Below are positions 1 to 43,820 of a stretch of 64,000 nt of DNA, in pieces. Source of the stretch: Anaeramoeba flamelloides (taxonomy: Eukaryota; Metamonada; Anaeramoebidae). The notes under the pieces were generated by a model, which had not been told where the DNA came from, searched no databases, and worked only from the letters and a program-made list of their open reading frames with translations. The DNA lies in contig JANTQA010000070.1 in assembly GCA_027625915.1 (NCBI GenBank), positions 4,655,001 to 4,719,000 of the forward strand. The letters are read 5' to 3'. Position numbers and translations under genes: made by a program. The stretch's first letter is position 1, and each line of letters begins with the position of its first letter.

Positions 1-3000
1 AGTATATTTTTTTAAATTTTTTATTATCGTAAATATGTAAATATCCCTCCTTTTTGCACGGGAACGCATAGCCCGACTTAATTTCCGATTTTACATTTTC
101 AAATAGAAATATACTTTCCTCAATAGACTTTTTTTTTTTTATTTTCCGAAGTCGGTGATTTTTATTTTGAATTGTTTTGTTTTGGTTATTTTGTAAATCT
201 TGTTTGTTTGTCTTATTAATTTTATAAATTTTTTGAATTTTATAATTTTCTTCATCGTTGTGTTTTTCTTTATTTTCAATTTCTAAATCTTCCAAATATT
301 TGTTATTAAAAATTTCTTCAATTTTCGGGATTTCAATAATTTTTAATTTTGATCTTGGCGCTAGCCCGATTTTATTTTGTAATTCAACTTGTAGAAATAT
401 ATTATCGACTTCATTTAATAAAACAAACCATTGATTTTTTTCAAATGACAATTCTTCTTCATTTAAAATATTATTATGACTTGCAATTGAATAAGCTATT
501 TCTAAATCTTCTAATTCTAAAAAATTGATTCTAGCATCTATACTTTGAAAATATTCTTTATATCTTTCGAGGTTAGCTAAACGCTGCAATAATTCCAATA
601 TACCAGAATAAATTGAAAAATATATGTTATAATAAATGACTGTATTCTTGTTTATTCTTGATTTTTTTTTATTCTTTTGTAAATAATTTGGGAACTGTCT
701 TTTGACAAATTCCATTCTTTTTTTTTCTATTTCCATTTTTTTCCCATTTAATTTTTGCAATTTGGTTTTTAAGTTATTAATTTTTTTTTCCAAATATTTG
801 ATTAATTTTGAAATCATTATTTTATATTCCTGAATTAAATTTGGTTCAATTGGATTTTTAAAAATTTCAAAATAAAAATAACATTGGATGTTATCAAACC
901 ATTCATGAAAATTTAATGCATTTTCACATGAAAACGTTAATTTATCTTCATTTGAAGCACTAATTTCAAAACAATTCTCTCGATTACATTCTAATGAACA
1001 ATCACAGATCATATTATAGTCTCTTAAATCTATTTGAGATTTCGAGACATAATTTTCTTGGTTAGAGTAACAATAAATTATACCACTGATTAATCTGTAA
1101 TACATTTTTTTCCATTTGTTTTTTTTTTTGAAATCCTGTTGATAAATAAAGCCTTCAATTTCAAAAGTATAATTTTCAAAATTATCTAATTTATTTTGTA
1201 TTTCTAAATAATATTTTTATTGAAAATAAGAATTATAAAAATATATTGGGGAATAAATAAAATATATAATTGTTAGTTTTTAATGTTGTATATAGTGAAA
1301 AAAAAATGGTAATTAAAATAAAGTTTTATGTGTAACTCATTTTTTTTTCTTTAAATATTTAAAATAATTTTAAAAGATTAATTTGAAAGAGTTTGTAAAT
1401 CTTATTTGAGTCATTTCAAGGAATTCAACAAATTTATTTTTTTCAATAGTCAGAACCAAAATTTTTATTAAATCTATTTTGTTTTATAAATTTTTTTGTT
1501 TTTTTTTTTGTTTGATCGTTCAATAATTCTTTCCATACAAAGTGAATTATAATAACATCAAATAACTCTAAAAAGTACTTTTGTAAACCATTATTACTGT
1601 TGATTAATGAAATTATTCAAAAAAAAAAAAAAAAAAAAGATACAAAATTCTATATTAAAAAGATTTAGTATTATATTTTTCTGTTTTTATATTTTTCTGT
1701 TTTTATATTTTTCAAAAAACAAAAAAATTTGTTTGAAATAAATTAGTTTGATATCAATACTTTTTATTTATTAAATTTAAAAATTAATCAGAAAAACTAA
1801 TGTTTTACTTTTCAGTTACTATTAATGCTACAAATTAAAAATTGCATTGAACTTTTTTTTAGTTTCATTTATTCCCTCAAACAGATTGATTTTAACTGTT
1901 ATTAGTACAACAAACTCTTAGAAAGAATTAAAAGTGTAATTGAAGAAAAAGAAAAATGTTTTTTTCAATGATTAATATAATTTTTTTTACTTGATCTTAC
2001 TTATATGAATTTAAGTGGCTATCAACACCATACCGATCACTGGAATTGAATTATTTGATAGTTTAGGAAAAAATATATTGCTTGTCTAAATTTCATAATT
2101 CTCCAAAAATTTAAAAAAAAAAGTTAAAATCTTTAATTTTACTAATATCTACAATTAATATTTAAGAGAAAATACTATTAAAAAAAAAATTAATAAGTAA
2201 TTTTGTGAAATGAATTTGATTTATTTTATGGGGGTTATTTTTCTGAGATATAATGCTAAAATCCCTTGATTTATTTTTTCATCTTTTTTTCATATTATAT
2301 TAAGTTATTTTTTTGAACATAATTTTCTTGACAAATATTATCCAAATCCAAATATTTTTGGAGATTTCAAAAAAAAAATTAAAATCAAAATTTTTTAATT
2401 TTTCAAAATTCTATTTTAGAAAAGAGAATTTCAGGTTTCATTTGTATTGTTCTTTTATAACTTTATCTTTAATTGTATGATATCTTTTATAAAGGAATTC
2501 ATTTTTATTTCGTAATATAATTTCAATATAACAATCAAAAAAAAAAAAAAATTTGATAATAAATTAAATTGTTTTCTTTTTCTTTTTTTATCCTTTTCTC
2601 TTGAAATGTTTTAGATAATTATTTATAAATAATAAAATAATAAGCCATGTTTTGTTTTTATCTTATAAAAGCATCATAATATACTTTCTAGGTAATTCTT
2701 TTTAAATTTTTGTGTAAATAAAAATATCTCATTTTATAGAACTTTTAAACTATCTCAGATTTATTTGAAATATTGTTTAAACTTTTTTGAAAATATTTAC
2801 TCAAATTAAACTCCTCAATTAAACAAAATGTATTTAAATTAAAAAATTAACTTTTTTTTAATAGTTACACAGTCTTTGGAATTCATTATTTGGTAATTTT
2901 TTAAAAAGAGCTTCGGATTTATAATAATTATTCTTTTAAACGTGTGTAAGGGTAATTTATCATTTTTATTTCAATTCCTAATTAATATTATAAAATCTGT

Positions 3001-6000
3001 AATTCTTTGGAAGTGTGAGATTCTATTAGAACGATTTAAATTACAAATCATGATATTGGACTTCATACTAGTTTTATAAATTAATTTGTATTTAATACTT
3101 TAGAACTTTTCAACCAATTTTAACATTGTTCGAATTAGAAAAATAATAATTTGATAAATACAAAGATCTTCAAAAAAAAACAATTAATTTTGAACACTAA
3201 ATCAAAAGAAAGAAAATTATGCCGATGATCAGATCAACTTTTTTTATTTGGTTTTAGTACCGATTTGGTTAATGGATTGAACATTTGTATTGATCAATAC
3301 TTATTATTTTTGGAATAATCCTTGAATCCCAACTTATTATTATATTGGATTTACTAATAAGAAATACCCAGGATAATAGAAATCAATTAATTGTATTCTA
3401 TATTTTTAATTTTCTTTACGGAAAAACAATTGCTTGACAGAATAATTTTTTAAAAACCTCAGTTTAAATTCAAAATATTTCACAAAAAGAGATTTTATGC
3501 ATAAAATAATTAGATCTGAAGATTGTTTATGATCTCTATTTTTGATCTAGACCCATAATTGTTCCTTTTAAATTTTAGAGTAAGTTCAATTAGAGTAAGA
3601 GTCTAATACGAGAAGTAAACAAATGTTTTTTTTTTTGATCCACTTCAATTGGATCTGAAAACTGTATTGTTTATTTAGTTGTGTTTTTGTTAGTTTTTTG
3701 AAATATTTAAAGTGATATGTTTAAAAACAATTTATTAGATTTTTTTTCAATATAAATTAAAATGCCCCCATACAATATTGAGATAAGAATAAAAGTTAAA
3801 GTATTTAACGTTCCCCAAAATAGATAAAAAAAATCAACTTAACATTATATTGTGGAATTTTAATTTATATTGGAAAAAAATATTAAAAATTATTTTTCAA
3901 CAAGTATAGTTTATAATAAAAAGCAACGAGGCACATGCAAAGTGAAAATTTTGACTTTTAAATACTACTCCCTTAATTAAGGTATTTCCAAAAAAGTGTG
4001 GCTTTTTTTTTTTTTTATTGTTGAGCAGAGGTGATTCAACAAAATTAACTCCTATTTGCCTGAAACTCTAAAATTGTATTTAGGGTTTTTTTATCCTAAC
4101 TGTAATGTAAGCAGGATTACAGCTCAAAGGATATCTTTTCTTTAAAAAATGAAAAGAATAAATTATTTCGGAAAAAAGACAAGAAAAAGAGAAAGAAAAG
4201 CAAGAAATGAAAGAGTCAAAAAATAATAGAAAAAAGAAAAAACTTCAGTGAAAAGTTTTTTTTTGTGCCCCAAGTGTTGAATGGGCTGGTGGTTGTTTCC
4301 TTTTATGTCGTTTTTTTTTTGGATCGCCACCATAGGTTGTTTTAATAAAGAGTTCTAAATATTTGAACAACTATAGATCAAATGAAAAAGGCTGTTTATT
4401 AAATTTTGATTTAGAACTTTGTAGATGGGTTGAATCTAAAAAGCTCTGGTTTTTAAGAATAAGATTTGGTTTTCGAAATTTTCTGTTCAGTTGCTTTGCT
4501 TTTTTTTTTTTTATTTTTTTTTTTTTGTGTAATTTTTTTTTTTATTATTTTATTTTTTTTTTTTTTTTGTAAGTTTCTCAAATCTTGTTTTCGCAAAATC
4601 CCAGTACAAGATACCGACTCGACAGCAAAAACCCAGTCCAAGTAACGACTCTACAGATAGTACGGAAAGTCCAATTCGGTTCACTTTGGTTGGTTTCAGA
4701 TCGCATTCGTTGGATTCAGTTCAGTAACATAAGTCCTCTTCGAAGATCTGATCATGAACAAGTTTGGTTGGGTTAGTCATGATAAGGTCAACCAATTCTT
4801 ATAATGATTTTTTATACTTTTTACCTTTCCCAAACACCTAAAAAAACAAAAAGAGAAGGAATATAGAGCCCAAGCAACTTAAGAAGGGAAATTTGGAAAA
4901 GGTAAAAAGTATAAAAAATAAAAAGTGTGGCTTTTTATTTTTTTTCATGAATTATTCTTTTTTTAAAGTTTCTATTTGTAAATTGACAGTAATAAATTCA
5001 GAGAGATATTAATACTGGTTGAATCAGTATCTATTGTATATATTCCAAAATATATTCATCAAAATATTCCCAAAAAAATGAAAAAAAAAATTAACATATT
5101 TTTTTTGAGAGAAAACAATAAACGTCCAATTTCACTAATAAACTTGAAATATGGTAAATGTACAAATGATTTTTTAAACAATCGAATGCAGTTATATGTT
5201 TTCAATTCTATTTGAAATTTTGATGAGATTAAAAAAGTTATGAAAATGATTTTTTCGATTAAAAAGAAAAATAAATAAACGCCAATTTTCGTAGACTCAA
5301 AAATATCAATATAAAATTTATTTCGGAAATTTTAATATCTTTTTTTAAGGTAATGCAATAGAAAAATCAAAAAAATTGGATTATTTTTAAAGAATCAATA
5401 AAGTTTGAATAATAATTTTGGATATTTAAAATTGTTTTATTAGGATTGGGTTCAAATAAGATATTTTAAAATAAATTTCCCCAGCTTTTTTGGAAATAGT
5501 TTAAATTAAATTATTGTTATTCTTTATTGTTTCTGAACAATTGATCTTAATTTTTTTTTTATTATTTTTTATTCATAAAATAGTAGAGATAAAAGTTAAT
5601 TATAATTGCTAAATAGCCATTATTTGAGTTACTGAATGTGTTTCAGTTTATATTTTTTTCTTTATTGCAAGGTGCAGTATTGATATAAAACTTTATGTGA
5701 TTTGATTGTATTGGTTTGTTTTTGTTTTTTTCCTTTCAAAAATGAAAAATTTATATTTTTTTTTAGTTTATAATTTTTTTTCAAAGACCAAAGGAATTTT
5801 ATCTATGAACTTAAATCAAATATTCTGTGTCTAACAAAAAAATAATTGGAATTGATTTCTTTGTAAAAATAAAAAATTATTTTCATACTTGAAAAAATAT
5901 TGTTGGAAAGTATGAAAAAGGGAATATTTAATCCCTATTAAAACTCTTACTAAAAAATCAATTTATTTTCAATTCCAAATATCTTAAATGTTTATGATAA

Positions 6001-9000
6001 TTCCAAAGTTTATCATTTTGAATGCACCTTGTAAAACTAATTTGAATCGATAAAACCCTCAAAGTGACTGAATTTACTCATATGAAATAAAAAAAACAAA
6101 AAGTTGTCAAAATTTGAGATTCAGGTTTCTGTTATTTCTGTTATTTCTGTGATTTTCTTTTCCAAAGGAAATGATAATATTCTAATACAATTTCCTTTTA
6201 ATTTTGAACATGAAGAGCCATATAATCTGAGAAGAGATATAAAAAGGATTTCTATATATTTCACATTTGCTATTTTATCTTGAAAGACATAAAAAATTAT
6301 GACTTTTAGTTTTCTCATCTTTTTTTTTTTTTTTTTTTTCACTAAAGCACCTTTTTGGAACATTAACTGGGATTTAATATCTTTTGTTTGGTCTAGTAAA
6401 CTCCAAATGGGAGAATCTATTGAAAGAATTTGTTCATGGATATTCGATTTTAAACTTTACTATTTTAAAAATAGTTTCTAAAATTGAAAAGTAATATATT
6501 TTAAATTTATTTTGAGCAAAATTAAAATCTAGTTAGCTCAATGATATTTTCCTTAAGCTGATTTTCTGAATTCTTTTTTGGATGTGATGTTACTTTTCGT
6601 TTAATATTACCAATCTCAAAATATACACAAAATCTTTAATTTTCAAAATTTGTACAAAAAAATATGTTATTGTAAAAAGAAAAACGTCAAAGGCATTTTG
6701 AAAGGTAATTAACAAATATTTCATTTATAAAAAAATGATTTTAATAAAAATATACAACATACCAAAAAAAAAATAAAATAAAATAAAAATTAAAAAAAAA
6801 AAAAAGCAAATTCTTACTTGATTCATTGATTGGAATCTTTTGTGATGTTATAATTAGTTTTCCATTTTCTGGAGGAAAATAACCAATTTTATTATTAATT
6901 TTACCTAACCATAATTGATCTTGATGAGCTTGGATTAATTCAACTAAATCAAATCGTTTAATTGAAAGTTCATTACCGACTAAAGCGGAGTAATTCTTTT
7001 CAACTAATATATAATGGCTATCTTTATTCTTTCTTATTTTTAATAAATAAATTTTACTAATTAAATAATTCAGCCATTGTGTGATAGACAATGCACAGCC
7101 TGATAAAAAATTAGATTGAAATTCAAAATATTCTTGGCTTAATTGTTTTTGAGATTTTAATTCAAGTATATGATGGTATTTATTGCTTATTTCCTTTTGA
7201 TAAAATGTCAAATAATGTAAGATTTTTTGGACTAATTTTACTTCATTTTCTTCATTATAATAAAATCTCTTTTTCAGTAGATTTTCAAATACTTTTGTTA
7301 CATGTAAAGATGAAAGCCAACAGTCCCTTTCTTCTTTATTAAAAATTTGAATATAACAAATTTTTCCATTATTTTGAATAATTTGAATACAATTTGGTTT
7401 ACTTGATTTACCTATTTCTAGTTCACAAGGCCTTATTGAAATAATCTTTGATAAATCTATTTCGAAAATTGGCTGTGAAAAGTTGTAATTATATCCATAA
7501 CGGTTGCTATGATGACTGTTATCATCAATTTTATAAAACAATAATTTTCTTGAAAGTAAAAGAATTCTTCTTGGATTCCATTTCCCATTCTTAAAAGAAA
7601 CATTGCAATTTGCTTCTAAATAATTAGGGATTTTTGATTTAATAAATTCAAAATCAAAAATTAGAGAATAATTTTGGATAATTGTCGTTGGTTTATTCGT
7701 TATTTTATTCACATTTTTATCTTCATTCACATTATCCCTCTTGTTTGGTTTATTTGTTTCCATTTCAGTTTCTGGTTCTTTGATGTTTAAATTGATTTTC
7801 TTCATAATATCGTCCATTGATGATGAATTAACTCGAAAAGAGCCTAGTAGTCTTCTTTTATTGTTACTTTTTAATTTAAAGGGCTTTTTTTTGATGGGAA
7901 CTATGTGGACATAATTACCTATATTGATTGGTTTGGTTTTTAAATTAAATAATAGATTAAAAAATGTGATTTTAAATTAATGAATTTGGAATTTGTAAGT
8001 AGGGTAACAATAATGATTAATATAATACAAGAATATTATAATGATACATAAATATATTACAATTTTTTTTTGTACAAATTTTGAAAATTAAATATTTTGT
8101 GTATATTTTGAGATTGGTAATAAAAAGAAAAGTTCACATCACAACCAAAGAAGAATTCAGAAAATCAGCTTAAGGTAAATATAATTAAGCTATCTTGGTT
8201 TTTATTTTGATCAGAATACATTTTCAATCTGTTACTTTTCAATTTTAGAAACTGTTTTTTTCAATAGTAAAGTTGAAATCGAATTTTGATGAAAAAATTC
8301 TTTAAATGGATTCTATCTTTTGGATTTACTATATAACGCAAATAGATATTAAATCTCAGTTAATGTTCCAAAAAGGTGCTTTAGTGAAAAAAAAAAAAAA
8401 AAAAAAGATGAGAAAACTAAAAGTCATAATTTTTTATGTCTTTCAAGATAAAATAGCAAATGTGAAATATATAGAAATCCTTTTTTGATCTCTTCTCAGA
8501 TTATATGACTCTTCATTTTCAAAATCAAAAAGAATTTACATTTTAATATTTTCATTCGTTTTTCAGAGAAAATTCATTCATAAATTAACTTGAATTACAG
8601 AAAATAAAATTTGAAAAAGTCATTAAGAATGCACTACAAAGCATACACCTTTAAAAAAAGTTTTGAGAAGTCAATAGAAAAAAAAAGAAAAAAATAATTT
8701 TTAAAAACAAATTTTTTTTGGAGAAGCGATAATCGGCCAGTAGGAAAGCCAAACTTTTAATCTGAAGGATAGAGGGGTTAATTGCTCTTAATCGCATTAT
8801 TTTTAATTGATTATCATTTTTTCAAAAAGTATCAAAAATTAATCATGGTATAATATTAATTAAAAATTGGGCTTATGTCTCTTATAACAGCTAATTATTT
8901 GAGAAAATAGTCTGAATGATTTATAATCTTTTTGACTATATAAAAATAAAAATAAAAATAGGAATTTGAATCAAAACAAAACCCCTATCAATTTATGGAG

Positions 9001-10007
9001 TGGGTGTGATTTTTGGGAAAAATGAACAGGTTTGCTCTATCACTGGGTTCAAAAATATCTCTTATTCAAATTCGTAATTCAGAAAGTACAGTAAAAATGC
9101 CGTAGAGTACCTAGGTTTTTTTTTTTTTTGGTTTAAACGAATAGAGTACAATCTTGATATTTCCTCTATTCTTTTAAATTCTGGAAAAGACAAGAACTTG
9201 GCGACACTCTAGACACGGCTGTTTATTTATATTATTATTATACCTAATAATTTTTAAATATTCTTGAACTTTCCACCCAGAACTTTTCTATTAAGTTTTA
9301 TCGAAAATTATATTAATATTTACTTTTAATAATTTTAAGTTTTCTATTTCCCAATTAATATTTTCATCTTATTTTGGAAATTTTTAATTTTTCTGAAATG
9401 TGTTTAAACCCCACAAGTTCTAAAAAAAAAAAAAAAAAAATTGTTTAGATTTTTACAATTTGGCTTACTTTGTAAAACCAAATCTTAAAAACAGTAAAAA
9501 AACAAAGATCTTTGGAAGATACTTCATTCTAAAAGTTTAAAGGAATTTAGAAAAAGTTTGTTTCTTTATAAAAGCAAATCACAGAAATCACAGAAATCGC
9601 AGAAACCTGAATCTCAAAATTTGACAACTTTTTGTTTTTGTTATTTCTCAAGTGTAAATTCAGGAACTTTTGTGATTTACCAATTCAAATTAGTTATACA
9701 ACATGTATTCAAAATGATAAAGTTTGGAATTATCATAAGCATCGAAATTTTTTTGTTTTTTTAGATTTAAAATTGAAAATCAATTGATTGCCTAGGAAGA
9801 GTTTTAATAGTGATTAAATATTCCTTTTTCAGACTTGATAAAATATATTTTTTCAACCAAAAATAATTGTTTATTGTAAAAAAGGCAATGAATGTCAATT
9901 TTTTTTTTGAAGAAGATTAAGAAGATTTGATTTAAGTTCATAGATAAAATTCCTTTGATCTCTGAAAAAAAAAATGATAAAAAAAATTAAATTAAACCTT
10001 TTAGTAC

Positions 10008-10053
<46 letters not shown>

Positions 10054-13000
10054 CCATGTATTGAACAAAAAGAATCCTCAAAAGTTTAAAAGTGAATTGT
10101 TGGATAATAAAAATTGAATTTTTTGATATTTTGTTGGATTACAGAAATGTTAACTATTAAAATCAAAGTTTTAACTTTTGAAAAAAACAGACAAAAAAAT
10201 TTAATGATCTAAATTATTTTTAATTGTGTTTTTATGATGAATTAGAAACTATTAATAATTATCGGGTTATTAATATTTATTCAAATTGTATTATTTAAAT
10301 TGGTATATTTATTATATTTTTTTGACAAAAAAAATCAAAATTTAATTTCAAAAATTCCTCCTTAACATTGGACAAAAAATGCAAAATAAATCATAATGAT
10401 ATTCCGCCTTTCCCCAAATTGGTATTTTTAAAAAAGTTATATTTTTTCGGAAATTTTTTGATTTAGAAAAATGATCCTTAAATTGAAATAACATAACTTA
10501 AGCCTTTCAAATTGTTGTTCTCAAATTATTAAATTTTAGTTTCCTGGTAAAAAAATTATTTTTTTTTTTTGCAAATTTGAACGTAATAGACTAAATTAGT
10601 AATTATGAACTTTTTTTGAATTTTCCATTCTAAATTATTGAAAAAAAAATAATTATAATAATTTAGATTTTGTTTATAACAGTTCCAAAAGATTTTTTGA
10701 TTTAATAATTCGCCAAATAGCTCAATATATGTGATATGATAGATTTCTAACTATCAATAATGAAAATATAGTACATTTTTAGAAAAAATAGTTAAATAGA
10801 TACAATCAATTTCAAGTTTAACTTGTTGTTAATTATAATTTTAAATACAGTATTCAGTTTTTGAAGTGTCAAAAATTTGGGCATTTTGAGTACTTTAGGA
10901 TTTATTTTATTTTTTTTGATCAATCTTGATTTATTTTTTTGATGTACTTTTTTTGAATTTATCAATATACTATACTAGAATATCTGACACTCCCCTTTTT
11001 ATTTCAATATTAATGGATTTAATTAAAGAAACAATTTTAATAATTCAATTTCGAATAAGCTATGGTACTCAAAATTTGTAAAATGAACCTACCCCCATAT
11101 GTTTTCTTCAAATTGTTTAGTTAAAAATATCAACTGAAATTGGTTTAAATTTTAATTTAAAAAAGATAAAACTAAAATTGGAAATTATGTTAAAAAAAAA
11201 ATAACCATTTGGGAAAAAAAGTTAAACACGGGTTTTAATTGGGAACATTAATACTGATAAATTCTAATAAATTTTCAAAAAATTTTTAGTTCAATTTCCA
11301 TTTTTATAAATCTTCGAACTGTTTCTTATCAAATAGTCCAGGACAAAGAATATTTTGAAGAACAACTAATTTCACAGAGTTTATTATCACTTGACTTCAT
11401 AAAATGTTTTATTCAAAGCTTGAGCATAATAATTTCAAAAAGGAAAATCAAGCAAAAATTTCCATTCATAAATTAAAATTTATCAGTATTACTAATAAAA
11501 AGTAAGATCAATTAATAAAAGATTAAAATTAATGATTAAAGACAAAATGAAGAATTAAACACAATAATAGTTTTTATAAGACTGGCTTTTGGTAATAAGG
11601 GTTTTTCTTTGATTGATCTATTATTATAAAACCATTTATTGAAAAATTTAACTCTTTTTGAGAATCTCAAAAACCACTTATCAAATTTCGATAAAAAGGG
11701 ATTTAAATTGTGTTTGGTATGATTGATAATAATATAACGGGTTATTCTTTGAAGTTGATTGGTTTCTTCTTTTAATTGATTTTACTTTTAGTTTTCAATT
11801 TTTTGTGATTTGTGTGGTGTATACTGATAAATTCAAAAAAATTAAATAAAATTTTTAGTTCCATTTCCCATTTTGTAATCTCAAATCTCAACTTTTAAAC
11901 CAACTCAAGAGAAAGAACATTTTGAAGCACAACCAATTTTATCAAGTTTTTTATCATTTAAAAGAATAAAATGCTTTCTTCAAAGCTTGTGTAAAAAAAT
12001 TTGTAAGAATGGAAAATGAAGTGAAAATTTTCAGATATTTATTTGAATTTATCAGTATGACTTATGTGCTTTCTGTGATTTCTGTGATTTCTGTGATTCT
12101 ATTAATGCTATCGGTTAAAAAGCATGTTTAACTTTAATCTCCAAATGTTAAAATTTCCAAAATTGCAGACTGTTAAATCAAGAAAATATCAAAACCTTCA
12201 AGGTTTTATTTTTATTCGTTTGAATAATTCCAAAAATGTGACAATATACTCTTTATTGGGTTATCTGATTGTAGCACCCTTTCTAATCAATTCTGGTTAT
12301 TCGATTTAAACATTTAAAAAGTGGAGAAATTCAAACAAAAAATATTTTATTCTCTTTTGGAAAAGTCTTTTTAAATCATCTGGATTGTACTTGTCAGCGT
12401 GTAATCGTTGTCTCTAAAAATCAAAACGTGATCTCTTGAAAAAAGTGTTATTTTTACACTTTCCTGAAAATTCAATATATTGATTGAGTTATTCAATGTT
12501 GTGTTAAAAAGAAAAGTTCAATAAAATTCAAATAATAAACTTAAAATTACATGGTTTTTGAAAAAGTCTTTAAATCAAGATACTTTCAAGAATTTGATTT
12601 CTAGAGGTGAAAATCACCAAAAAAAAAAGTCCATTTTTAGTGTTAATTTTAACGTCGGGGAAAGACTCTGATTATAATATTTCAATTATCACAATTTTTT
12701 GAAAAAAGTTCAAAGAAAAAAAAAAGAAAAAGAGTAGAATTAACCCAACTTTTTGAAGAGAAATTCAATCAGTAAATGTGTAAGTGAAGCATCTGGATAA
12801 TTGTACTCGGGTTATATAACTAACAAATGCAGAGCATTTGGTTTTTTATTTTTAAAGCAATTACAAACACTTAACTTTCATAAAACTATGAATTTAAAAT
12901 TTTTTCTTACTTGGAATCTTTCGAAATTATATTACAAAATGGAGGTGCCTGTGTGTTTATACAGATTCATATGAGTTTAGAAAAAAAGATACCAAGTAAA

Positions 13001-13718
13001 TGCTTTGTTCAAAGAAGTAACTTTAAAAAAAAAAACAGTCGCCCAAAGCACCCATGCCAAGTGCACAAAATCAGTGTTTCAAAATTAAGCCATACTTTTT
13101 TTTTTCTTCTAGTTCCAATAGAGCATCAAATTCACTACAGAATCGTATATCGAAGTTAATTCAATTTTAAAAACAAAATTATTGGAATGTATTGATGGTG
13201 GATATTTGCTTAAAAAAACAAGACTGTTTTTTACAAAATAAAAAAAGGTAAGAAAGCAAAACTGAAAAACCAATTAATCCCAAACCCTTTTAGAAAAGTG
13301 GTTCTTTGTGAAAAAGGCTTCTTGTAAGTGACTTTGGTTTGAAAGAAAAAAAAAATCATTGTGTCAAGCCTTAAGCAATCTGTGAAGAAAATAAAAAAGA
13401 ATATGTACCCATTCGGATTTACAGTGTAGACTAAAAATGGAAAGATGAGGCTTTTTGTTGGTAATTTAACCAATAAGAACGGAAAAAACTTGTACTTTTT
13501 TTCAGAAAAAAAAAAAATAAAGAACCCGAATATTAAAAAAAAGTAAATAAAAGAAATTTACGTGGAAATATCCCAACTTTTTGTGTACGGCTATTTTTTC
13601 CAGTGATCCACAATTGATCAGTGTCATTGTTTTGGTTTATTTCTATTGTGTCTCCTTTTTTGAAAGAAACAACCAAAGGATGATCAGAAAAATAATCAAA
13701 CTTTGCAAACGATGTCAT
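1..13718 (-). CDS. Multi-module SH3-PH adaptor protein, 3 exons seen, cut by the left edge
   Basis: Exons (minus strand): 13718-13562, 7918-6818, 1203-1 (continues off the window). Seen: 820 residues. SH3-1 is at residues 3-60 and is split by intron 1 inside its GIFPRNYVHIV end; PH-1 about 150-261; helical stretch about 262-352; SH3-2 354-410 (LWLGK, GYFPP); PH-2 434-535 (EIEGFIYQQ, WKKMYYRL, EWFDNI); basic helical or coiled-coil stretch about 545-640; SH3-3 653-709, which lacks the usual tryptophan; PH-3 starts near 804 (KEGYLHIYD). Both introns interrupt codons after base 1 and have GTAAAT/GTAAGA donors and TAG acceptors, so the frame runs through. Known: SH3 domains bind proline-rich peptides and PH domains bind phosphoinositides or proteins. 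Inferred: a membrane-associated signalling scaffold. The first ATG in the SH3-1 exon (13718) was taken as start; an AAG acceptor lies just before it, so an upstream exon is possible. Domains confident, start uncertain. Confidence 0.82.
1793..2210. repeat. Dispersed repeat, direct copy of 63140-63536
   Basis: It begins with the TTTTCAGTTACTATTAATGC end typical of the TTTCTGTGA-related family and continues through shared blocks such as TTTTAACTGTTATTAGTACA and TTCTCCAAAAATTTAAAAAA. The same blocks occur in the same order at 63140-63536, where the repeat is cut by a CAGTCAGTTC element. Confidence 0.75.
3981..5510. mobile_element. TTATTTCC inverted-repeat DNA element, interrupted by a 0.9-kb insertion
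   Basis: The left end is GGTATTTCCAAAAAAGTGTG and the right end, read on the other strand, is CTATTTCCAAAAAAGCTGGG. No transposase is visible, so it is a non-autonomous element. The 17-bp string AAAAAGTGTGGCTTTTT occurs at 3991-4007 and again at 4920-4936, bracketing the insertion. Related elements lie at 19646-20240 and 48011-48600. Confidence 0.7.
4008..4919 (+). repeat. 0.9-kb dispersed repeat of unknown class, nested insertion
   Basis: A long stretch matches 34500-36015 in order: GAGGTGATTCAAC, CTTTTCTTTAAAAAATGAAAAG, AAGTGTTGAATGGG, AACTATAGATCAAATGAAA, GGTTTTCAAAATTTTC-like. A hairpin closes the 3' end (4807-4917; TATACTTTTTACCTTTCC pairing with GGAAAAGGTAAAAAGTATA). A long target duplication of about 17 bp fits retroposition (LINE or SINE type) better than a cut-and-paste element, but no protein is recognisable. 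Confidence 0.6.
5770..6660. repeat. Left arm of long inverted repeat flanking the middle exon of the SH3-PH gene
   Basis: Read on the minus strand this arm matches 8055-8540 and then 9545-9980, for example at the blocks CACTAAAGCACCTTTTTGGA, AATTCCTTTGGTC/ATC and AAATTTGACAACTTTTTG. The short reading frames inside it are homopolymer artefacts. Confidence 0.8.
8055..9980. repeat. Right arm of the long inverted repeat, split by about 1 kb of inserted sequence
   Basis: 8055-8540 and 9545-9980 are reverse-complement matches to the left arm at 5770-6660. Sequence 8541-9544 has no counterpart in the left arm and is likely an insertion. It includes a CTAGGTTTTTTT motif near 9110 related to the hairpin family further right. 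Confidence 0.75.
10009..10051. repeat. CATA/TA microsatellite
   Basis: Three CATA units run directly into a pure TA tract. Confidence 0.9.
11252..11488. mobile_element. TACTGATAAATT MITE, copy 1 (237 bp)
   Basis: It starts TACTGATAAATTCTAATAAA and ends AAAATTTATCAGTA, an inverted pair. The interior (TTTTTAGTTCAATTTCCAT, AGTCCAGGACAAAGAATATT, TTCAAAGCTTGAGCATAATA) is nearly identical to 38180-38390. Confidence 0.8.
11822..12057. mobile_element. TACTGATAAATT MITE, copy 2 (236 bp)
   Basis: It has the same inverted ends, TACTGATAAATTC and GAATTTATCAGTA. The interior is a more diverged version of copy 1, sharing AAGAACATTTTGAAG and TTCAAAGCTTG. Confidence 0.75.
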
Positions 13719-28196: not shown

Positions 28197-28386
28197 TATT
28201 TAAGATCTAGAAATATGTTTATGGGAATGATTAGAACTAATCATAGAATAAACCATAACATAGACCCCATAAAGATTTATATCTGAAAACCAATAATTTC
28301 TATTTTAAAACCAAACTAGAATGATCATCTTTCCAAAGAAATTTGTTAAAATCAAATAACCATTGTGAAAAAAATTTGGTTCATTA

Positions 28387-29200
28387 AAAAAAATTGGGTC
28401 AGTCAAAAATTTGTTTTCGTTTTTTAAATAATAAATATTAGCAAAATGATTTTTGATCAAAGTAAAATTTTATGAACAAATCTTACATTTAATAAAAACC
28501 AAAGTCACTATCAATAATAATTTTCAAATGTAAAATTAAATTGTTGCATTTTAACCTTTTGGAATTACTGTGGAACTCCAAAAAAACAAAAATTTATTTT
28601 TAATTGTAAACTTTACTAAAAATGTTAATTTTTTTTTATTAGAAAACATTACAAGATCAAGTTAATTATTGTTTGGGAAGACCAAAAATTAATAATAGTT
28701 TTAAATTAAGGTTTTTCTATGAGGATTTTTAGAATTTAAATGTTTTCTGAAATCTGGATATTTCGGTATTTTGAAGTTTTGATTGTAAACATTAGTGGAA
28801 AACAACCTCTTTCGAAAAAATATCTTTTTTGGAAGATTTTATTATTCAATTTGGTTTAAAAGGATATTTAAGATTAACCGTGATAAATTTGCGTTTATTA
28901 ACAATGATAAATATCTTATTGAATTAATAGATTTTAGTATTTCCTATTAAATAGTTCTCTTATTTTTCGTAAAGTTGACAATTAAAAATAAATTTTTGTT
29001 TTTTAGAGTTCCACAGTAATTCCAAAAGGTTAAAATGCAACAATTTAATATTGCATTTGAAAATTATTATTGATAATGACTTTGGTTTTTATTAAATGTA
29101 AGATTTGTTCATAAAATTTTACTTTGATCAAAAACCATTTTGCTAATATTTATTATTTAAAAAACGAAAACAAATTTTTGACTGACCCAATTTTTTTCAA
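28387..29200. repeat. Long palindrome (arms about 235 bp, 0.8 kb overall)
   Basis: The left arm 28387-28628 (TTGGGTCAGTCAAAAATTTG at its edge) and right arm 28968-29200 (CAAATTTTTGACTGACCCAA) are close inverted copies, with an unrelated loop of about 340 bp. The arm similarity is high, so the insertion looks recent. Confidence 0.85.
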
Positions 29201-38583: not shown

Positions 38584-39143
38584 ATGGTCAAGCCTTTAGT
38601 TAGACGCAAAAAAGTTAAAAAACATCCAAAAAAATTTAGAAAATGGAACTACAATAGATACAAAAGAATGTCGGTAAGTTTGTTCCTTTTTTTAAAACAT
38701 AAAAAAAAAAGAAAAAAAAAGTAAAAAAGAAAAAGAAAAAGAAAAAGTTTTTCAACAACATTTGTTAGATTACTTACATTTTGTTTGTTTTTTGTTTTGT
38801 GCTTTTTTTTTATTTTTAAAACTAAACTCAGGAATCTTGGAGAAAACCAATTGGTATCGATAGTAGAGTAAGACGTAAATATAAAGGTCTTCAAAAAATG
38901 GTTTCAGCTGGTTATGGAACTGAAAGGATCATGAGACACAGAATGAGAAACGGATTTTTCAAAATCACAATCCACAATTTAAAAGATCTTGAAATGTTAC
39001 TTATGCAAAACAAAAAATTCGAAGCTCAAATCGGCAAAACTGTTTCTTCCAGAAAAAGAAAATTAATCGTTAAAAGAGCCAAGCAACTTGATATTAAAAT
39101 CATGAACCCAACAGCTAGATTAGAAACAGAAGATAACAACTAA
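38584..39143 (+). CDS. RPL32: Cytosolic 60S ribosomal protein eL32, 2 exons, 133 residues
   Basis: Exons 38584-38673 and 38832-39143, with a 158-bp phase-0 intron (GTAAGT...CTCAG). The product is a structural protein of the large ribosomal subunit. Family blocks in order: MVKPLVRRKKVKKHPKKF, ESWRKPIGIDSRVRRKYKG, YGTERIMRHRMRNGF, HNLKDLEMLLMQNK, VSSRKRKLIVKRAKQL and NPTARLETEDN. These follow animal and yeast eL32 throughout, and the length is normal (human 135). The short early intron after residue 30 and the clean canonical splice sites contrast with the multi-kilobase introns nearby. A poly-T run follows the TAA stop. The identification is certain at the family level. Confidence 0.97.
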
Positions 39144-41292
39144 GTTTTTTTTTTTTATTTTTATTTTTATTTTTAATTTCAATTTCTTTGATCAAAACAA
39201 AAAGGAATTAAAAAAAAAAAATTATTCAAAAAAAGAAAAACTTTTGCTCTTTACAAAAACAAAAAAGAAATCGGACTGTGACTTTTAATAATTATCAACA
39301 GAATTATTTTTGGAAATAATTTTCTTTTTTTTAAGAATTATGAATTGTCCTTTTTTCTTTTTTGTTTTTCATTCTCCTTGATTGTTGTTGCTTAAATAAA
39401 ATATATTTTTTCGAACATACATCCCAAATTCTTTTTTTTTTTAAGGATTGTTACTTTTTTTTTGTTTGCTTTTTTTGTTTTTTTAATCCAAAATTCGTTG
39501 TTATAGAATTTATTAGAGGGTTAGGGTAGGTTAAATAAAAAACAGTTCAAAATCAAGAATTGTGCTTAGTGTCTCAAAGGATGGAATAAAAAAAAATTTT
39601 CAACCCATAGATTTCATCAGAACATTTTATTTGATGACTTTCAAATTCGAAATAATTAATCACTTTTTTTTGATTTGGTTTGCTCAACTAATTTGTTCAA
39701 CGAAGGACAACGGCTTTGAAAATCCATGAGATCCTTAAGAAAAGAAACCAAAGATGAACAGTCGATTTTGTTGAAGAAAATTATTCACAGTACATTACGC
39801 TTGTGACAAAAGGAACAAATAAATTCTGAAAATTAAAGTTTGCCAAAACTATATATTGTATTTCAGTTATACATCTTTTATAAATTATTTTTACAAAGTT
39901 ATGAAAATTTTATGTAATTAAGAAAAGACAACTATTAAATTAATTAAGATTTGATTACCCACCTTTTCAAAATTACCTTCAAATCAAAAAAACACCTATT
40001 TTTATGATATTTTTTTATTGAAATAAGCTACAATGAATGAACTTTTGATTGAACATTAAGTATGAAAAAAGAACAAATGTTTAAACAATTTGCAGATAAA
40101 AACAGGGAATATAGATTAAAAACTCAAACATGAAAAAAAAAAATGATAAAATGGTCAAAAATATTCCAAAAACAGAAAAAAAATCAGTTTTTCAATTTAA
40201 ATTAACAATATCTTTTGAAAGAAAGAAATATTTTATTTTATTATTGAAAAAATATGATTCTTTTTAAAATATTAAAAAATAAATCCAAATAATCTCTTTC
40301 ACTAAGTCAAATAAAAATTTCAAAGCTTTTACAATTAAAAATGAAATAAAAATATTACTTGAAAATTTTGATTTTTTTGCAATTCCCATTAATACCGAAT
40401 AAAGTTGTAAAACTTTTTCAAAATTGTATATATAAAAATGTTTATTATTTGAGTGTATTTCAAAAATACAAAATTTGGAGATTTTTTTTTTGAAAAATTT
40501 TTTAGAGTCTTGTCATGTCGTATAGAGTCATTGGACACACATTCTTTTGAACACTGTCGTAATTTTTTAAACCTTTCAAAACTCTAGAAGTTTTATGTAA
40601 GGAGAAACTAATCCTTTCTAAAATAAAAGGAATTATTTTTTCATTTTATTTGTCTGATCAAAATCTTTTTTAAACAAAGAGTATCTTAACATGCATCCGA
40701 TCTTGTAGAATTAAAACTATTTTATTCTTCAAAACTAAAAAACAGAATACTGGTCTTTGTAAAATAAATGAGTAATAAATTTCACAACACTTTCTTAATT
40801 TTTCAGTGACAAATAGCGTTTCCAATGACACAGTGGAGGATTTTTTAAGATCTCTTTTTTTATAAAAGTAAAATAGGAAATGAAGTGAAAATTTTTTCGA
40901 TATATTTTGCAAATAACATCATTAATTTCATTGAACTAATTTGCAATCCATGACCTTACAATACAAAGCAAATAATATTTAAACAAGTTATTGTATAATC
41001 TATTGAGTTCTTGTAACCATAGGTGTAATTCAAAAATACAAAGTAATTTCAAAAAAGATTTATTAATGAGAATATTTTTTAGTCCAAAATAGGTGTAATT
41101 TTGTTTCTGGCAAAGACTCAAGCTAATTGAGTCAGAGAATTTTTTATCAAAACAAATTTCAGAACTTCAGAATGGAGAGGAAATTTCCAAGATCAAAATT
41201 GAAAATGAATGAAATAATAATTTCCAAAAGAACATTCCAAGAGTTTTATTTTTTGAATCCGAAATCTATTTTAAGATTATTCTTCTCTTTTA
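39144..41292. other. Intergenic region with left inverted-repeat arm
   Basis: 39144-39800 has poly-T rich sequence with no gene. 39800-40500 is the left arm of a long inverted repeat. 40500-41292 has no recognised content and should include the promoter of the following gene. Confidence 0.6.
39800..40500. repeat. Left arm of long inverted repeat flanking the 41293-42099 gene
   Basis: Read on the minus strand it matches 43105-43820, for example TTTGAGTGTATTTCAAAAATAC, TCTCTTTCACTAAGTCAAATAAAAA, GTCAAAAATATTCC and AAAGTTTGCCAAAACTA versus AAAGTTAGCCAAAACTA. Identity looks high but with many small differences, so the arms are not brand new. Confidence 0.85.
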
Positions 41293-42099
41293 ATGACTAA
41301 AACCAAGCGCCCTACAAAACCTGTAGGCAACTCGTTAATCTTTGGTTTTAGTATGGACAAATTGACGTGGGTGCAATTAATTTTAACAACAAGCTGTCTA
41401 GCTATTTGCCATGTCTTAAACAAAATCTATCGAAGGAATGAATTAAGGATCCCGTTCCTTTCACTCTTATTTAATCATCCAATGGAACACTTGGTTTCGT
41501 CAACACTTTTAACAACAACAGCATGTATTAACATCTTCACAGCGTTTGTCAATTATGTACAAATGTCGAAACGATTCCCAAAATCGGATAAATTATTGCT
41601 TATGATCTTAGTATTCAGGTTCCTATCTGGAGGAACTTTAATAGTATCTGTAAATGTACCTTTACAAACAGACTGGAACACCATTTCGTCTGTGGGGATC
41701 TTTTCTGTCGAAGAATTTAACCATAAGATCACCATTTTCTCGCGATTGCATTTGTTTGGGATCAATGCATTTTTTTTGAGTTGTGCTGCTTTCCAATTCC
41801 TTTCTCAAATTTTCATTTTGACACAAGAGATCTACCAAATCAAAGGATTCAAAGAAAAGTGTATTCTTCGTTTTATTTATACAATTGTGAATATATTTTG
41901 CTTGGCTAATTTAAAATTGGTTGGCGCTTTATTAGTCAGTGGGAGGCCACAAAATGTCGCATTTTTTTTGAATTTGGCTGCTCTTTTCCAACACATTAGT
42001 GTCATCTTTATTTTTCTTTTTTTAGGCACACCGCTAAATTTTGATCACACAGTTTACGTCCAGATATTTGATATCAAGAAAAATGAGTCAAAAAAGTGA
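41293..42099 (+). CDS. Six-pass membrane protein, Frag1/DRAM/Sfk1-like, 268 residues
   Basis: A single-exon gene with about six hydrophobic helices near 26-43, 66-88, 101-122, 152-178, 192-214 and 223-245, and a short polar C-terminus. Features like the Frag1/DRAM/Sfk1 family are IPFLSLLFNHPMEHL after helix 1, FVNYVQM after helix 2, FLSGGTLIVSVNVPLQT in helix 3, and RLHLFGINAFFL at helix 4. Family members sit in the plasma membrane, Golgi or lysosome and act in phosphoinositide organisation, GPI-anchor remodelling or autophagy; the role here cannot be chosen. The base composition is less AT-biased than the flanks, supporting a real gene. It lies inside a 4-kb block bounded by inverted repeats. 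The family assignment is by pattern only; another multi-pass family is possible. Confidence 0.65.
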   Translation: MTKTKRPTKPVGNSLIFGFSMDKLTWVQLILTTSCLAICHVLNKIYRRNELRIPFLSLLFNHPMEHLVSSTLLTTTACINIFTAFVNYVQMSKRFPKSDKLLLMILVFRFLSGGTLIVSVNVPLQTDWNTISSVGIFSVEEFNHKITIFSRLHLFGINAFFLSCAAFQFLSQIFILTQEIYQIKGFKEKCILRFIYTIVNIFCLANLKLVGALLVSGRPQNVAFFLNLAALFQHISVIFIFLFLGTPLNFDHTVYVQIFDIKKNESKK

Positions 42100-43104: not shown

Positions 43105-43820
43105 GGAAAATATTTTCAAAAAACAATTCATAAGTTTTGTATTTTTGAAATACACTCAAATAATAAACATTTTTATATATACCAATTTTACATAACGTTT
43201 ACAACTTTATTAGGTATAAATGTGAATTGCAAAAAAAAAAAAACAAAATTTTTAAGTAATATTTTTTTTTCATTTTTAATTGGAAATTTTTAAAATTTTT
43301 ATTTGACTTAGTGAAAGAGATTATTTAATAAAAAATTTTCAATAGTCTAAAAAGAATCATATTTTTTCAATTTAAAAATAGAATAAAATATTTCTTTCAA
43401 AAGATATTTTTAATTTTAATTGAAAAACTGATTGTTTTTATGTTTTAGGAATATTTTTGACCATTTTATTATTTTTTTTTTCATATTTGAGTTTGAATAT
43501 ATATTCCCAGTTTTTTTCCGCAAATTGTTTAAAAATTTATTCTTTTTTCATACTTAACATTCAATCTAAAGTTCATTTGTTGTAATTTATTACAAAAAAA
43601 ATGTGAATAGTTGTTCTTTTGATTTGAAGGTATTTTTGAAAAGGGTAATATTCCAATTTTTTATTAATTTAATAGTGATATATTCTTCATTATATAAAAT
43701 TTTCATAACTTTGAAAAAATAATTTATAAATCATATTTAACTGAAACACAAAGTGTAGTTTTGGCTAACTTTAATTTCAAGAATTTATTTTTTTTATTTG
43801 TATTACTCAAAAATAATAAA
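43105..43820. repeat. Right arm of the long inverted repeat flanking the 41293-42099 gene
   Basis: This is the reverse-complement counterpart of 39800-40500. No terminal motif of a known transposon or target duplication could be identified at the outer edges. Confidence 0.85.

Follow-up and report, generated by a model that had tools for sequence, protein, structure and literature searches.

Gene model and extent of the locus

What does a gene encode whose SH3 and PH modules are spread over exons lying more than 5 kb apart? We address this question for a minus-strand gene at the left end of a 64,000-nucleotide (nt) stretch of the Anaeramoeba flamelloides genome, hereafter the window, which is A+T-rich and corresponds to positions 4655001-4719000 of contig C70 (JANTQA010000070.1) in a 254-Mb genome of 76 contigs. 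The gene probably encodes a Ras GTPase-activating protein of 2,784 amino acids (aa), in which a long targeting array, made of six SH3-PH-helical units and ending in an SH3-like stretch, would precede a C-terminal RasGAP domain. Of this reading, the gene model, the array of units, the RasGAP domain and its key residues are established at the level of sequence.

The gene consists of three exons, all on the minus strand. Exon 1 (13562..13718, 157 nt, with its ATG at 13718) codes for the 52 N-terminal aa of the first SH3 domain (SH3-1) plus one base; exon 2 (6818..7918, 1,101 nt) codes for the rest of SH3-1, PH1, helical region 1 and SH3-2; and the in-window part of exon 3 (1..1203) codes for PH2, helical region 2, SH3-3 and the beginning of PH3. 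They are separated on the same strand by intron 1 (7919..13561, 5,643 nt, GTAAAT..TATAG) and intron 2 (1204..6817, 5,614 nt, GTAAGA..TTTAG). The exon ends proposed in the preliminary description of this DNA, 13562/7918 and 6818/1203, proved correct: both introns are GT-AG and in phase 1, and the three exons join in frame. Chance is ruled out for the coding parts, because the frames of exon 2 (411 aa) and exon 3 (2,364 codons) far exceed the longest stop-free runs of the two introns (108 and 111 aa) and of 20 mononucleotide shuffles of the region (107 aa). The predicted split gene, with three exons and two long introns, is thereby confirmed.

The preliminary description had also recommended extending the contig leftwards, and 40 kb on that side of the window were examined. 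Results showed that exon 3 remains open, without any stop, for 2,364 codons down to a TAA at C70:4649107-4649109, about 5.9 kb left of the window edge, so that the gene measures 19.6 kb and encodes 2,784 aa. PH3, which had been recognised as cut by the window edge, indeed continues in the neighbouring sequence, and a RasGAP domain was found in the C-terminal part of exon 3. The portion of the protein on which the first description was based amounts to under a third of it.

The RasGAP domain and its catalytic residues

The C-terminal domain (about aa 2330-2600) matches the Pfam RasGAP model at 7.2e-20 (model positions 1-207 of 207), and its nearest solved structures are those of neurofibromin (3.4e-10), SynGAP (1.8e-8) and p120GAP (6.8e-6). 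Alignments with these place LFRTDS on the arginine finger, which in the window gene is the Arg at aa 2399, and FLRFLSP on the FLR motif. The FLRxxxPAxxxP motif is present as FLRFLSPFLIFP, with a single deviation, Ala to Phe. Considering the window gene together with its relatives in the same genome (42 sequences), the finger arginine is present in all 38 sequences that cover the position (the other 4 do not cover it), the FLR arginine in 40, with Lys in the remaining 2, and the Asn in all 42. RasGAPs switch Ras off, and we infer that the RasGAP of the window gene would speed GTP hydrolysis on a Ras-family GTPase.

These data modify the initial view of the gene as encoding a large adaptor. The SH3-PH-helical array stands, but the protein is no stand-alone adaptor, as it ends in a RasGAP with key residues in place. 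An SH3-PH adaptor devoid of a catalytic domain is excluded by the RasGAP found in the open exon 3 and downstream in the relatives.

Could the protein nevertheless be mainly a scaffold, whose RasGAP, like that of IQGAPs, would bind Ras but be catalytically dead? The huge repeated array would suit such a function, as would the Ala to Phe change in the FLR motif and the FRTDS that replaces the commoner FRGNS after the finger. However, FRTDS is common to the two closest relatives (L067 and L087), and the arginine finger, the FLR arginine and the Asn are kept here and nearly throughout the family, whereas IQGAPs carry Thr at the finger position according to PMC12871552. We therefore consider a dead RasGAP unlikely.

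An array of six SH3-PH-helical units

In the joined 820 aa encoded within the window, Pfam recognised PH (2.7e-17, 2 stretches) as well as SH3_2 (1.5e-13) and SH3_1 (3e-13), with 3 stretches each. The profile searches that had been recommended thus bear out the alternation of SH3 and PH modules read from the sequence at first, and the array extends beyond the window. On the minus strand, PH1 (7287..7631, aa 149-263, bounds set by hand) matches Pfam PH in exon 2 at 1.1e-7, and SH3-2 (6846..7019, aa 353-410) matches SH3_2 at 0.012 when taken alone and the SH3 of STAC3 in the PDB at 6.1e-4. PH2 (860..1165, aa 433-534) is recognised in exon 3 at 5.4e-12 by Pfam PH and at 3.8e-6 by the PH of IPCEF1 in the PDB. 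It is followed by helical region 2 (521..859, aa 535-647), whose helices are predicted from sequence and whose profile resembles that of helical region 3 (probability 68.9), and by SH3-3 (326..502, aa 654-712; SH3_2 at 0.0087).

Units were delimited in 4 of 44 proteins, namely the window protein and three complete relatives that share about 30% identity with it (L033, L034 and L035), and the same four served for profile comparison and for a tree. The array so delimited comprises seven SH3 or SH3-like stretches, six PH domains and six helical regions, the later SH3s being degenerate and SH3-5 to SH3-7 doubtful. The profiles of PH1 to PH6 matched each other at a probability of at least 59.7 in 14 of 15 pairs, the 15th pair reaching 29.7, and those of the helical regions matched at 40 or above in 7 of 15 pairs; control pairs taken across classes gave at most 3.3 (n = 7). 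In each of the three relatives Pfam itself picked out PH stretches (6, 6 and 5). The module-by-module phylogeny, likewise proposed at the outset, was run on the 24 PH domains of the four proteins, and each of the six PH positions formed one clade (support 0.878-0.999), indicating that the six-unit array is older than the separation of these four copies.

We also looked at the ligand-binding residues of the SH3 modules. The window copy keeps the tryptophan of SH3-1, as do L035 and all 17 relatives read in frame. At the corresponding position of SH3-2 the window copy has Leu, and the tryptophan is kept in 10 of 16 relatives. SH3-3 has no ligand tryptophan, as correctly noticed in the preliminary description, and all 19 relatives examined are alike; this loss therefore tells nothing special about the window gene. 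The division of labour among modules that had been proposed from it finds some support, but the SH3-3 loss is an old family trait, and the loss private to the window copy is that of SH3-2.

Splice junctions in the relatives

The gene model would fail if the three exons came from separate genes, two or three in number, with a merely coincidental junction within SH3-1. In favour of such a split, introns of 5.6 kb are long, and 14 of 43 relatives gave no exon-1 match; in the other 29 an exon-1 homologue lies upstream. The junctions themselves argue otherwise. Among the 29 relatives with exon 1, the phase-1 donor in SH3-1 was read in 21 (17 by script, plus L038, L035, L036 and L037), and in every one the GT stands one base past the same codon. 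Intron 1 measures 155 nt in L035, whereas the relatives on C13 and C37 have 5,540 and 4,433 nt there; SH3-1 was restored in all three once the exons were joined, so that the early claim of an SH3-1 complete only after splicing holds beyond the window gene. The same exons are thus linked over a short intron in L035 and over the two long ones in the two closest relatives.

At junction 2, tested in 19 relatives (loci L014-L032), the equivalents of exon 2 and exon 3 share one open frame in 14, of which 12 aligned across the junction unbroken (L030 as a weak match at 5e-4) and 2 had both sides in the same frame. In the two closest relatives exon 2 is likewise a separate exon; compared with each other, these two show about 78% DNA identity in exons 1 and 2, and their introns share short repeats only. 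Taken together, separate genes appear highly improbable. Total intron spans in the 29 relatives with an exon-1 match, estimated roughly with indels ignored, go from 0.2 to 9.6 kb with a median of 0.75 kb. As intron lengths vary so widely, the near-equal introns of the window gene (5,643 and 5,614 nt) look coincidental.

A gene family in the same genome

A genome search for matches to the exon 3 sequence inside the window yielded 56 rows; once 12 repeated rows were merged and the window gene was excluded, 43 relatives were left. A genome search for RasGAP gave 228 matches, and of the best 150 we used 65, hand-picked for long frames or nearness. A RasGAP is located downstream in at least 41 of the 43 relatives: 35 have it within the same open frame, and 6 in a separate frame further downstream on that strand. 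For the other 2 there was none among the matches listed, and both may have one beyond them. The window gene and its relatives thus make up a large family of enzymes that are predicted to inactivate Ras and that carry a repeated targeting array.

The window copy is most unlikely to be a decaying pseudogene, as its very long introns filled with repeats and its SH3-2 and PH2, without the canonical residues that relatives keep, might have suggested: the 2,364 codons of exon 3 have no stop, the catalytic residues are kept, and the ratio of nonsynonymous to synonymous substitution rates (dN/dS) is below 1 in every exon tested (0.28-0.52 for exons 1, 2 and 3 and the RasGAP region against two relatives, rough ratios given a dS of 1.0-2.1, so that only their direction is informative).

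Besides the roughness of these ratios, several points weigh against the reading of the window gene as an array-bearing RasGAP. The FLR motif departs from the published consensus by a Phe in place of Ala. Pfam, at E <= 1, recognises neither PH3-PH6 nor SH3-4 to SH3-7 in the 1,963 aa to the left of the window; these modules of the window gene were identified solely through the relatives and profile comparison. The SH3 profiles match weakly (5 of 21 pairs at 28 or above), and SH3-7 is without support as an SH3, its best profile match being 3.6. AlphaFold models of the two in-window frames, run without alignment, were unusable, with a mean predicted local distance difference test score (pLDDT) of 34.8 and 40.5. 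Finally, a lipid-binding PH motif occurs in 0 of 6 PH domains of the window copy and in 4 of 18 of the three whole relatives. The window PH domains are consequently no more than candidate lipid binders, and some of them may bind proteins instead of lipid.

Other loci came out of the same searches. Among the 65 RasGAP rows used, 23 further loci belong to open frames longer than 1,500 aa without a match to exon 3 of the window gene, and they are possibly more distant family members. One in-frame TAG interrupts each of the three top-scoring RasGAP matches in the genome (C24:6153692-6154303, C19:949695-950303 and C24:6586835-6587446), which suggests short introns or a stop that is read through. 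Tandem SH3 repeats of near-equal score were also observed in open frames some 1,440 aa long, for example at C70:2474065-2476113 and C9:5461335-5462375.

Comparison with known systems

By sequence, the closest solved RasGAP is that of neurofibromin (NF1), and both proteins are about 2,800 aa long with an arginine finger and an FLR motif. We rejected an NF1 orthologue, as the RasGAP of the window protein is C-terminal and is all that Pfam detects at E <= 1 in the 1,963 aa encoded to the left of the window. The p120 RasGAP (RASA1) has SH3 and PH before a C-terminal RasGAP, and also SH2 and C2, its SH3 and PH being single. The window protein has the same order of SH3, PH and RasGAP, the latter similar at 6.8e-6, but with about six SH3-PH units, and Pfam found neither SH2 nor C2 at E <= 10 on the joined 820 aa or at E <= 1 on the 1,963 aa; a RASA1 orthologue was rejected on these grounds. 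Intersectin resembles the window protein in bringing together several SH3s, a PH and a domain regulating small GTPases. Its SH3s form one block and its regulator is an exchange factor, whereas the window SH3s alternate with PH domains and the regulator is a GAP. From the IQGAP family the window RasGAP differs by the Arg, in place of Thr, at the finger, and no IQ motif appeared in the Pfam scans of the joined 820 aa and of the 1,963 aa left of the window.

IqgC, RGBARG and C2GAP2, RasGAPs of the feeding cups of Dictyostelium, come from a phagotrophic amoeba and likewise carry additional targeting regions, and the available sections of PMC12871552 describe no SH3-PH repeat array for them. In the literature searched, which leaves out most subscription papers, we found no account of a RasGAP with SH3 and PH modules alternating in an array, and a search on Anaeramoeba together with RasGAP returned nothing. 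The section on trafficking expansions of PMC11550330 deals with Rabs and TBC RabGAPs and not with RasGAPs.

A possible role for the array

RasGAPs shape amoebal feeding structures; at the macropinocytic cups of Dictyostelium, Ras is held in check by NF1 and IqgC, as reported in PMC4374526 and PMC12871552. By analogy, the array in front of the RasGAP would decide the place and the partners of the enzyme. Less firmly, the PH units might hold the protein on membranes, and SH3-1, the only SH3 keeping canonical residues in the window copy, might dock proline-rich partners, so that Ras would be switched off in a confined patch such as a feeding cup or a phagosome. The roughly 44 copies would then differ in address and not in chemistry.

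A bolder and doubtful extension, which we offer tentatively, is that the roughly 44 giant copies could form an addressable RasGAP toolkit. With the same chemistry throughout, the modules of the six-fold array would gain or lose ligand residues from copy to copy, each copy would read a different set of lipid and partner signals, and a cell could maintain many zones where Ras is off, perhaps on the symbiosome membranes of Anaeramoeba. The family may be a candidate control system for the membranes that hold the symbionts. About 44 predicted array-bearing RasGAPs in one protist would also amount to a natural experiment, showing how targeting modules change while the catalytic core stays fixed. Such a gene can moreover hide from annotation, as the intron at the same site varies between 155 nt and over 5 kb from copy to copy.

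Repeats in the introns and other features of the window

The introns of the window gene contain dispersed repeats. A long, imperfect inverted repeat surrounds exon 2, with one arm in intron 2 (5754..6665, plus strand) and the opposite arm in intron 1 (8062..9989, minus strand), interrupted between about 8604 and 9521. Identity is 86.7% between 6126-6665 and 8062-8603 and 77.8% between 5754-6215 and 9522-9989. When 40 of 707 candidates were scored, one arm matched at least 38 further places of the genome at 73-78% identity, so the inverted repeat is no special feature of the gene; the two arms, 87% alike, are nearer to each other than to any scored copy. Exon 2, inside this repeat, is phase-symmetric, with phase-1 introns on both sides, and its skipping or back-splicing would preserve the frame. 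The inverted repeat could favour either event, yielding a variant that lacks PH1 and SH3-2.

Such closely spaced inverted pairs seem to be frequent in the genome. A second one in the window (39806-40501 / 43107-43801, 83.6% over 713 nt) flanks a membrane-protein-like open frame at 41275-42099, and a third (28384-28623 / 28962-29200) has arms that are 96% alike.

The window also includes, on the plus strand, a gene for the ribosomal protein L32e (38829-39107), one of 19 matches in the genome. According to PMC11550330, the genome of A. flamelloides is A+T-rich, contains over 1,100 genes for ribosomal proteins and is almost six times as large as that of A. ignava.
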